Shown here: positions 55,718 to 58,401 of the stretch, one piece after another
How positions within the stretch are numbered: the first letter of the stretch is position 1
Layout: each line of letters opens with the position of its first letter
From: Parapedobacter defluvii
GTDB lineage: Bacteria; Bacteroidota; Bacteroidia; Sphingobacteriales; Sphingobacteriaceae
Reading direction: 5' to 3'
NCBI RefSeq assembly: GCF_014642075.1
Contig: NZ_BMIK01000005.1
Span: 62,001 to 126,000 of the forward strand
DNA: 64,000 nucleotides
Translations under genes and position numbers: made by a program
The notes under the pieces: generated by a model
Seen by the model: the letters and a program-made list of their open reading frames with translations, nothing else
Told to the model about the DNA's origin: nothing
Database searches by the model: none

Positions 55718-56293
55718 ATGCATCATATGGATTTTCATCGGTATTTACTGGTATTTGAAGATATATTACACGCTTCGCCTCCTTCTGCTCCCTACGACAA
55801 CGCTGCGTATCTTGACTATGCTAAACTTAATTGGTCGAGGATGAGCCGATGGTTGAAAAAAGGGGTGTTGAGCGAAGTGGTGGTGGAAACGGTTCGTCGT
55901 ATCAACGCACCTCAACACTGGCTGGTGATCACCGAGCCGTGGTGTGGTGACGCTGCACATACCTTGCCGTTTATTCAATTGATCGCCCAGCAAAACACGC
56001 ATATTTCAGTGGAATACGAGTTGCGCGATTCTCCACCTTTCCGCATCGAGAAGTACCTGACCAATGGCAGCAAGTCGATCCCCAAATTGATCATACGTGA
56101 TGGAAAGGGGAATGATCTGGCAACTTGGGGACCACGGCCCGCAGCTTGCCAGCAACTCTATGATCAGCTGAAGGTAGAAGGTGCAGATTTTGAAACGCAA
56201 AAAGTGGCGCTACAAAATTGGTATAACGCAGATAAAGGTCAGTCGCTGCAACAGGAACTTTGCGAGCTGATTGCTGAGGTCGTCTCCCATTGA
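55718..56293 (+). CDS. Single-cysteine thioredoxin-fold protein
   Basis: A 191-residue cytoplasmic thioredoxin-like protein, starting at ATG 55718 or, three codons later, 55727. The active-site region is VITEPWCGDAAHTLPF, which has Trp-Cys-Gly-Asp instead of Cys-x-x-Cys, so it cannot form the usual internal disulfide. The later cis-Pro loop is present in SKSIPKLIIRDGKG. The pattern is that of the Thioredoxin_9 group, of unknown substrate. It may work by a monothiol mechanism. It lies upstream of the DNA-linked radical SAM operon but has a separate promoter-like element. Confidence 0.85.
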   Translation: MHHMDFHRYLLVFEDILHASPPSAPYDNAAYLDYAKLNWSRMSRWLKKGVLSEVVVETVRRINAPQHWLVITEPWCGDAAHTLPFIQLIAQQNTHISVEYELRDSPPFRIEKYLTNGSKSIPKLIIRDGKGNDLATWGPRPAACQQLYDQLKVEGADFETQKVALQNWYNADKGQSLQQELCELIAEVVSH

Positions 56294-56322: not shown

Positions 56323-56354
56323 TTTGTCGTAGTGAAGCTATTTTACTAATTTTG
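56323..56354 (+). promoter_or_regulatory. Promoter of the radical SAM/DUF4130 operon
   Basis: TTTG at 56323-56326, a 20-nt spacer and TAATTTTG at 56347-56354 give a near-ideal Bacteroidota promoter, with a predicted start near 56361, 13 nt before the ATG at 56374. The -7 element lies inside an inverted repeat. Confidence 0.7.
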
Positions 56355-56366
56355 TTAGTAAAATAG
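56338..56366. promoter_or_regulatory. 12-bp perfect inverted repeat, likely operator
   Basis: Arms CTATTTTACTAA (56338-56349) and TTAGTAAAATAG (56355-56366) are exact reverse complements around a 5-bp centre. The element covers the -7 box and the transcription start, so a bound repressor would block initiation. Since the left arm lies upstream of the start, it is unlikely to act as an RNA hairpin. Confidence 0.75.
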
Positions 56367-56373
56367 TAAATAA

Positions 56374-57615
56374 ATGCAAATAGAAGAAAAGCTGAATATA
56401 CTGGCCGATGCGGCCAAATACGACGTTTCATGTGCGTCTAGTGGGGGAACCCGCAAAAATAGCGGAAAAGGATTGGGCAATAGCCATCAATCCGGGATTT
56501 GCCACAGCTACACGGAAGACGGCCGCTGTGTGTCGTTGTTGAAGATTTTACTGACCAATCACTGCATTTACGACTGTGCATTCTGTGTGTCACGCCGCAG
56601 TAACGACATCCGCCGGGCGGCCTTCAAGGTACAGGAGGTAGTCGATCTAACCATTAATTTTTACCGGCGGAATTACATTGAAGGGCTTTTCCTGAGTTCG
56701 GGCATTTTCAAGAATGCCGATTACACCATGGAGCGCCTCTTGCAGATCGTCAAGAAACTCCGCACGGAAGAACGGTTTCACGGTTACATTCATTTAAAGA
56801 CCATTCCCGGTGCGAGCGAGCAATTGGTCAGGGAAGCTGGCCTGTATGCCGACCGGATGAGCATCAACCTGGAGCTGCCCACGGAAGCGGGGCTGAAACA
56901 GCTGGCGCCGGAAAAGTCGCACGAGGAGGTGAAAAAGCCGCTCGACTGGGTGAATAAATCGATGATCCAGCTGAATGAGGAACGCCAACTGATGCGGCGC
57001 GTGCCGACATTCGTGCCCGCCGGGCAGAGCACGCAACTGGTGGTGGGAGCCACGGCAGAAAGTGATAAAGACATTCTGTACACTGCCGATCGTTTTTACC
57101 GGGACTATGGGTTAAAGCGTGTGTACTATTCCGGCTATATTCCGGTCAGTGAAGACCACCGGTTGCCAACGATCGGTAGCCATCCGCCGTTGCTGCGGGA
57201 AAATCGCTTATACCAAACGGACTGGCTGATGCGGTTTTATGGTTTCGAGGTGTCGGAACTGCTCAATGACGACCATCCCTTTCTGGATACGGCCATCGAT
57301 CCCAAACTGAGCTGGGCGCTCCGTCATCCGCAGGTGTTTCCCATAGACGTCAATACCGCGGAATACCGGATGATTTTGAGGGTTCCCGGAATCGGTGTCG
57401 GATCCGCGCAGAAAATCGTACAGGCACGGAAATTCGGTAAACTGCGTTTCGATCAGTTGCGGAAAATCGGGGTGGCGCTCAACCGGGCCCGCCATTTTAT
57501 CTGGTGTGCCGACAGCGTTCTGTCCTTACGTGAACCCTCACCGATGGAGATCAGGCAACGTATCCTCGCCTCGCAGGCGTACCGGTTTTCCCCCACGCAA
57601 CTGAGCTTGTTTTAG
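56374..57615 (+). CDS. Radical SAM protein linked to DNA modification or repair
   Basis: A 413-residue radical SAM enzyme with the cluster motif CIYDCAFC (Cys64, Cys68, Cys71). The N-terminus has an SSGGTRKNSGKGLGNSHQSGICHSY segment, and the C-terminus a helix-hairpin-helix-like region (ILRVPGIGVGSAQKIVQ, then LRKIGVALNRARHFIW) suited to non-specific DNA binding. It matches the family annotated as putative DNA modification/repair radical SAM protein, whose partner gene encodes a DUF4130 protein and is in some genomes fused to uracil-DNA glycosylase. The partner begins 3 nt downstream here. The biochemical reaction is not known to me. The promoter overlaps a perfect inverted repeat. Confidence 0.9.
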   Translation: MQIEEKLNILADAAKYDVSCASSGGTRKNSGKGLGNSHQSGICHSYTEDGRCVSLLKILLTNHCIYDCAFCVSRRSNDIRRAAFKVQEVVDLTINFYRRNYIEGLFLSSGIFKNADYTMERLLQIVKKLRTEERFHGYIHLKTIPGASEQLVREAGLYADRMSINLELPTEAGLKQLAPEKSHEEVKKPLDWVNKSMIQLNEERQLMRRVPTFVPAGQSTQLVVGATAESDKDILYTADRFYRDYGLKRVYYSGYIPVSEDHRLPTIGSHPPLLRENRLYQTDWLMRFYGFEVSELLNDDHPFLDTAIDPKLSWALRHPQVFPIDVNTAEYRMILRVPGIGVGSAQKIVQARKFGKLRFDQLRKIGVALNRARHFIWCADSVLSLREPSPMEIRQRILASQAYRFSPTQLSLF

Positions 57616-57618
57616 CAT

Positions 57619-58401
57619 ATGGAAACGTATGTATTTGATGGTTCGTTAACCGGGTTACTTTCGGCGGTCTTCATCGCCTACGAGCGGAGATCGGATGCCG
57701 TGAAGGTGGTGAGTCAAGATCGGTACCAGCCGGATCTGCTTGGGGGTGGGATAAAGATAGATGCAGATTCCCGGCAGGCTGACCGGGTCTGGAAGGGATT
57801 GGCCAAACGTGTGGGGGCGGCGGGGTTGAACACGTTCTACGCTGCTTTCCTTGGTGAGGATGCGCAGGGCTACCAATCCCTGTTTGACTTATCAAGGGCT
57901 GTTTTTGACCGTGGCGGTGACATCATGGAAGACTTTGGCAATGTGCAGTTGCTCTTCGTTTCGCAATTGGCCCGCAAGGTACACCGCGAAAAACACCGGA
58001 TGGAAGCGTTTGTTCGTTTCCAGAAGACAGCGGACGGCCTGTTTACGTCATTCGTAGCCCCCGATTACAACGTATTGCCACTGATCCGGAGGCATTTTAC
58101 CGACCGGTATGCCGACCAGCGCTGGCTCATTTACGACAGCAAGCGTAAATACGGACTTTATTACGACGGAGACAGCACCGCCGAAGTGGAGATCGAGTTT
58201 TCCGGGCCGACAGGTAAGATGCGCACCTCCTCATTGCCGGAAAATGTGTTGGCAGAAGATGAGGGATTGTATCAGCGCCTTTGGAAGGGATATTTTAACC
58301 ATACCAACATTGCCGCTCGCAAGAATACCAAGCTCCATATCCGCCACATTCCCAAACGGTATTGGCGCTACCTGACGGAGAAATCCGATCTACATCTTTA
58401 A
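57619..58401 (+). CDS. DUF4130 (TIGR03915-type) partner of the radical SAM protein
   Basis: A 260-residue protein starting 3 nt after the radical SAM gene. Features of the family are an N-terminal YVFDGSLTGLLSAVFIAYERR, a middle KVHREKHRMEAFVRFQKTADGLFTSFVAPDYNVLPLIRRHFTDRY, and a C-terminal YQRLWKGYFNHTNIAARKNTKLHIRHIPKRYWRYLTE. The many Lys/Arg/His near the end suggest nucleic acid contact. In other bacteria the same domain is fused to a uracil-DNA glycosylase; no glycosylase is present in this gene or window. Its last 12 bp overlap the end of the convergent oxygenase gene. Function unknown. Confidence 0.88.
   Translation: METYVFDGSLTGLLSAVFIAYERRSDAVKVVSQDRYQPDLLGGGIKIDADSRQADRVWKGLAKRVGAAGLNTFYAAFLGEDAQGYQSLFDLSRAVFDRGGDIMEDFGNVQLLFVSQLARKVHREKHRMEAFVRFQKTADGLFTSFVAPDYNVLPLIRRHFTDRYADQRWLIYDSKRKYGLYYDGDSTAEVEIEFSGPTGKMRTSSLPENVLAEDEGLYQRLWKGYFNHTNIAARKNTKLHIRHIPKRYWRYLTEKSDLHL

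Follow-up and report, generated by a model that had tools for sequence, protein, structure and literature searches.

A predicted LexA operator over the -7 element of a radical SAM DNA-repair operon in Parapedobacter defluvii

The inverted repeat and its surroundings

The window, a 64,000-nucleotide stretch of the Parapedobacter defluvii genome (contig NZ_BMIK01000005.1), contains two consecutive genes that both match putative DNA-repair families, preceded by a gene running in the same direction (Table 1). The product of the first gene we take to be the COG4277-type repair protein of the operon of Sanchez-Osuna et al. Directly upstream of this gene sits a perfect inverted repeat of the form CTATTTTACTAA-TTTTG-TTAGTAAAATAG, the whole site being CTATTTTACTAATTTTGTTAGTAAAATAG. 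The arms (56338-56349 and 56355-56366) pair without mismatch around the TTTTG centre, and the -7 element TAATTTTG lies inside the repeat; on both points the initial annotation was correct. Its judgement that such a match is very unlikely to arise by chance is borne out as well. With spacers of 0-12 allowed, the site is the only perfect repeat with 12-bp arms in the whole window, and none appeared in 20 simulated first-order Markov windows. At the local composition (24% GC / 76% AT) the chance of such a repeat is about 8e-4 for the 80-bp intergenic stretch.

Table 1. Features in and around the inverted repeat (positions in the window)
Feature	Position	Strand	Basis
Upstream co-directional gene, Thioredoxin_9; possible source of read-through RNA	55721..56293	+	ORF and family scan
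Possible -33 element TTTG, 20 bp before the -7 element	56323..56326	+	sequence; weak motif in the phylum (PMC6847099)
Perfect inverted repeat, 12-bp arms, 5-bp centre	56338..56366	.	sequence and window scan
CTAA-N5-TTAG box (CTAATTTTGTTAG), predicted operator of the Bacteroidetes non-canonical LexA	56346..56358	.	motif match and conservation
-7 promoter element TAATTTTG (consensus TAnnTTTG), enclosed by the operator box	56347..56354	+	sequence; consensus from PMC6847099
Predicted 5' leader of about 15 nt, containing part of the right arm only	56359..56373	+	start site inferred from -7 numbering (PMC6847099)
Putative DNA repair radical SAM protein, TIGR03916 rSAM_link_UDG (COG4277 type), weak helix-hairpin-helix match	56374..57615	+	family scans
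Partner gene, TIGR03915 SAM_7_link_chp / DUF4130 putative DNA repair protein	57619..58401	+	family scans

An origin of the repeat in a mobile element or repeat family was rejected because the genome has a single copy of the exact site. An invertible promoter was rejected by reasoning alone: the arms almost touch, and there is thus no segment to invert.

The LexA box, its repressor and its regulon

What is conserved and functional is the CTAA-N5-TTAG centre of 13 bp; the 12-bp arms vary in sequence among orthologues. With CTAA and TTAG exactly 5 bp apart, the box fits one of the two operators defined for Bacteroidetes SOS repressors (Sanchez-Osuna et al. 2021, PMC8565304). Even with one mismatch allowed, the window has a single occurrence of the extended pattern RCTAA-N5-TTAGY, against 4 expected by chance; the motif is therefore rarer than background. 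The other Bacteroidetes SOS motif, GGA-N5-TCC, is absent from this promoter and from all 80 orthologues listed. The -7 element agrees with the promoter consensus of the phylum, TAnnTTTG, for which the -33 motif is weak (PMC6847099). The G of the -7 element is placed at -5, which puts the expected transcription start near 56359, within the right arm, and gives the short leader of Table 1. The initial annotation had seen in the repeat a repressor operator positioned over the start site; a box that matches the published LexA motif and encloses the -7 element supports this prediction.

The genome encodes a single Peptidase_S24 protein (P0001, 258 aa), with an N-terminal HTH_3 domain (PF01381) and a C-terminal S24 domain. 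All the residues expected of a self-cleaving repressor are present: the Ala-Gly bond (SAGY, near residue 106), Ser143 and Lys182 are invariant across 30 orthologues. Its own gene, lexA, carries ACTAATTTATTTAGT 24 bp before the start codon, and the exact box is found upstream of lexA in 30/30 orthologues. Bearing its own box, the repressor gene is probably autoregulated. We note that a second box with one mismatch (CTAACTTTATTGG type) is conserved in most relatives, lying approximately 23 bp further upstream than the exact lexA box (for example at -61 in L053).

It appears, with a probability of roughly 0.94, that the repeat marks a LexA operator on the -7 element of a two-gene DNA-repair operon that is opened after DNA damage. 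A dimer of the CI-like S24-peptidase repressor, the non-canonical Bacteroidetes LexA, would bind CTAA-N5-TTAG over the -7 element. The bound repressor would cover both this element and the start site and so bar RNA polymerase from the promoter of the operon. After DNA damage, RecA filaments would trigger self-cutting of the repressor at the Ala-Gly bond (A106-G107 region) by the Ser143/Lys182 dyad. The operon would then be switched on together with lexA, imuA-imuB, the SplB-like gene and an exonuclease gene. The binding, self-cleavage and induction in this scheme are inferred from published relatives (PMC8565304) and from LexA biology. The Pontibacter actiniarum repressor was shown by gel shift to require both half-sites and the 5-bp spacing, not the neighbouring bases, and mitomycin C induces the target genes (PMC8565304).

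The pattern of boxes across the genome is that of a regulon. RCTAA-N5-TTAGY occurs 13 times in 5.8 Mb, as against 66 times for the reversed control pattern, and five of the 13 boxes lie at genes of SOS type: the window operon, lexA, an ImuA-like gene followed by imuB, an SplB-like (PA0069-type) radical SAM gene and a DnaQ/GIY-YIG exonuclease gene. Several of the other sites are at genes without a clear repair role, so the box alone is not proof. The initial annotation had called for such a genome-wide search, with the SOS-like regulon put forward as speculation. The outcome, taken with the orthologues described below, supports the presence of an SOS-like regulon for lexA, imuA-imuB, the SplB-like gene and the exonuclease gene, but recA (L165, G000:C1:135873-136658) has only imperfect boxes, two of them, each with a single mismatch in the core and one lying over the start codon, and no box was found at the dinB-like gene on contig C2. 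In the sister species, boxes are found at two DinB genes, two DnaE2-type genes, an SplB-like gene, an exonuclease gene and lexA.

Three further loci came to light in the course of this survey. A protein of about 100 aa (MKRxRKRKTE...) without a Pfam match is a candidate new SOS gene product; its gene has a LexA box approximately 12 bp upstream in both Parapedobacter species (L033:1528-1818, + strand, and L052:1186-1488, - strand). At L032:1488-1528, a CTAA-N5-TTAG box located 50 bp ahead of a gene of the PDDEXK_2 family sits within a perfect inverted repeat whose arms are 14 bp long (ATGGTTTTAACTAA-TATTT-TTAGTTAAAACCAT). A SatD-family gene (L037:1500-2264) also has a LexA box upstream.

Conservation of the box at orthologous promoters is observed directly. 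In a first set of 19 orthologues the box is exact in 15 and has one mismatch in 3. In a widened set of distinct upstream regions of the radical SAM gene from Sphingobacteriaceae it is exact in 128/137, and the other 9 differ by one mismatch; shuffled upstream regions reach 0.4%. Absence of the repeat from orthologues in close relatives had been named as grounds for abandoning the operator, and for the core box the opposite is seen. In the set of named orthologues, the box is present in 42/46 Pedobacter, 1/21 Flavobacterium-type and 0/7 Dyadobacter orthologues. The Flavobacterium orthologues share no convincing palindrome, GGA-N5-TCC included. In two Flavobacterium species that lack a LexA box (L128 and L144), a stem of 15-16 bp surrounds a TAnnTTTG -7 element and adjoins the start codon. 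In Dyadobacter (L100, L122, L124, L125, L129, L130 and L134), TATCAA-N4-TTGATA is found in 6/7 upstream regions, possibly a diverged SOS box in a group that the 2021 paper was unable to assign.

The outer arms of the repeat

The published repressor needs the core only, so the outer 8 bp call for another account. Complementarity of the arms is the only part of the site that may be new. Pairing of the flanks was measured in radical SAM promoters whose box encloses the -7 element, with flanks swapped between species as the control. Flank positions 5-9 pair at 0.53, compared with 0.40 for swapped flanks (p<1/4000, n=62). Removal of near-duplicates by clustering leaves 0.44 versus 0.36 (p=0.004, n=40), with p=0.013 for n=16. 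Promoters whose upstream neighbour runs in the same direction show the excess (n=88, p<1/5000) and those with a divergent neighbour do not (n=27, p=0.28), co-direction and clade being confounded in these data and several of the strong cases belonging to one Pedobacter/Nubsella clade.

The likeliest account of the outer arms, at slightly less than even odds, is that they are a chance product of the AT-rich sequence in which a real LexA box lies. Just 8 pairs are added to the core, the local AT content is 76% and most orthologues of the radical SAM gene have no long arms. Taken as a family, however, the sites depart from pure chance in the permutation tests above, a result weakened by the clade structure.

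Alternatively the arms could act in RNA, as an addition to the LexA operator and not a replacement for it, although we consider this unlikely. Here the arms would form a hairpin only in transcripts reading through from upstream, hiding the start codon. The mRNA from the operon's own promoter would start inside the right arm and stay open, while the stem in read-through mRNA would block leaky translation when there is no damage. The + strand does fold at -13.5 kcal/mol (z -4.3), with the stem ending 7 nt before the ATG, and no fold in a control of 62 other co-directional genes stands out as strongly from its own shuffles. The excess of flank pairing over the swapped control and its restriction to co-directional neighbours are in keeping with this account. 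Between the arms of P. defluvii and those of P. pyrenivorans, two outer pairs (+6 and +7) have changed on both sides, A-T to T-A and T-A to C-G. Long arms (at least 7 of 9 pairs) are found in 0/34 lexA boxes, and the stems around the -7 element of the two Flavobacterium species occur without any box. Strong arms also accompany a short upstream distance, but this effect is not significant after clustering, and the confounding of clade with orientation weighs against the hairpin too. Nor are G-U mismatches favoured over A-C (7 vs 5), though as a probe for pairing in RNA this count is uninformative. Two more SOS genes whose close neighbours run in the same direction (L041 and L043) lack long arms, and identical GCTATTTT arms in distant species could indicate protein contact instead. 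Structure near the start codon is known to affect translation initiation in this phylum (PMC6847099). On this basis, together with the folding, the flank pairing, the effect of orientation and the Flavobacterium stems, we put forward, with low confidence, the silencing of read-through mRNA as the function of the arms. In its most specific form, which we regard as doubtful, the proposal is of an SOS promoter lying inside an RNA stem-loop: the -7 element would form the loop and the start site would lie in the right arm, such that only read-through mRNA folds and goes untranslated. If true, a single palindrome would serve both for LexA to repress transcription and for leakage to be silenced in translation.

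It is less probable again that the arms extend the operator itself, with the repressor or a second regulator making extra contacts outside CTAA-N5-TTAG and so creating a tighter site. The same GCTATTTT/AAAATAGC arms do recur in Parapedobacter and in distant Pedobacter/Nubsella. Against such contacts, binding of the P. actiniarum repressor was unaffected by changes beside the dyad (PMC8565304), the arm sequence varies while complementarity is kept, and the lexA boxes lack long arms. That the repeat is an intrinsic terminator of the upstream gene, or a known structured RNA belonging to it, and acts without any repressor, was rejected as almost certainly wrong: the repeat lies 44 bp past the upstream stop codon and folds well, yet it has neither a G+C stem nor a U-run, a terminator search of the site and comparison with Rfam returned no match, and unrelated genes carry the same centre as a conserved DNA motif. 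The long arms, with their complementarity, present a possible further level of regulation that can be put to the test.

Relation to known systems

Hairpins that protect against read-through transcripts are familiar from the transposase genes of IS10 and IS50. The logic may be common to both, a stem that forms in outside transcripts only and hides the start region. The predicted Parapedobacter stem differs in being composed of AT pairs only and in belonging to a chromosomal repair operon. A literature search on read-through hairpins returned nothing relevant.

For the LexA operator the comparison is closer. The core, the spacer, the content of the regulon, the auto-regulated S24 repressor and its CI-like HTH are all shared with the non-canonical LexA of Bacteroidetes, for which the motif has been reported upstream of umuDC, recA, recN, dinB, ruvB and splB and, in several species, of imuA-imuB-dnaE2 and COG1573-COG4277; Sphingobacteriaceae are among the families with large regulons (PMC8565304). 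The SOS reading is in all likelihood right, but already known, both the motif and this operon family as its target having been published in 2021. The box in Parapedobacter, a genus that the main text of that paper does not name, differs from the published operator in enclosing the -7 element and in sitting within a longer perfect inverted repeat. The classical LexA boxes cited there (CTGT-N8-ACAG and TTAC-N3-GTAA) are likewise palindromic operators cleared through self-cleavage of the repressor, whereas their sequence and the DNA-binding domain that reads them differ from those of the non-canonical protein.

The COG1573-COG4277 pair was predicted to be an SOS target in several species and to constitute a base excision repair operon (PMC8565304). 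The Parapedobacter operon resembles it in having an rSAM_link_UDG-type gene under the same motif and may differ in its second gene, which matches TIGR03915/DUF4130. Sequence analysis confirms the SOS membership of a poorly understood radical SAM repair operon in a genus beyond those named in the text of the 2021 paper. Conservation of the operator is near-universal across the operon family, and SOS membership strongly suggests that DNA damage is what the enzyme acts on.
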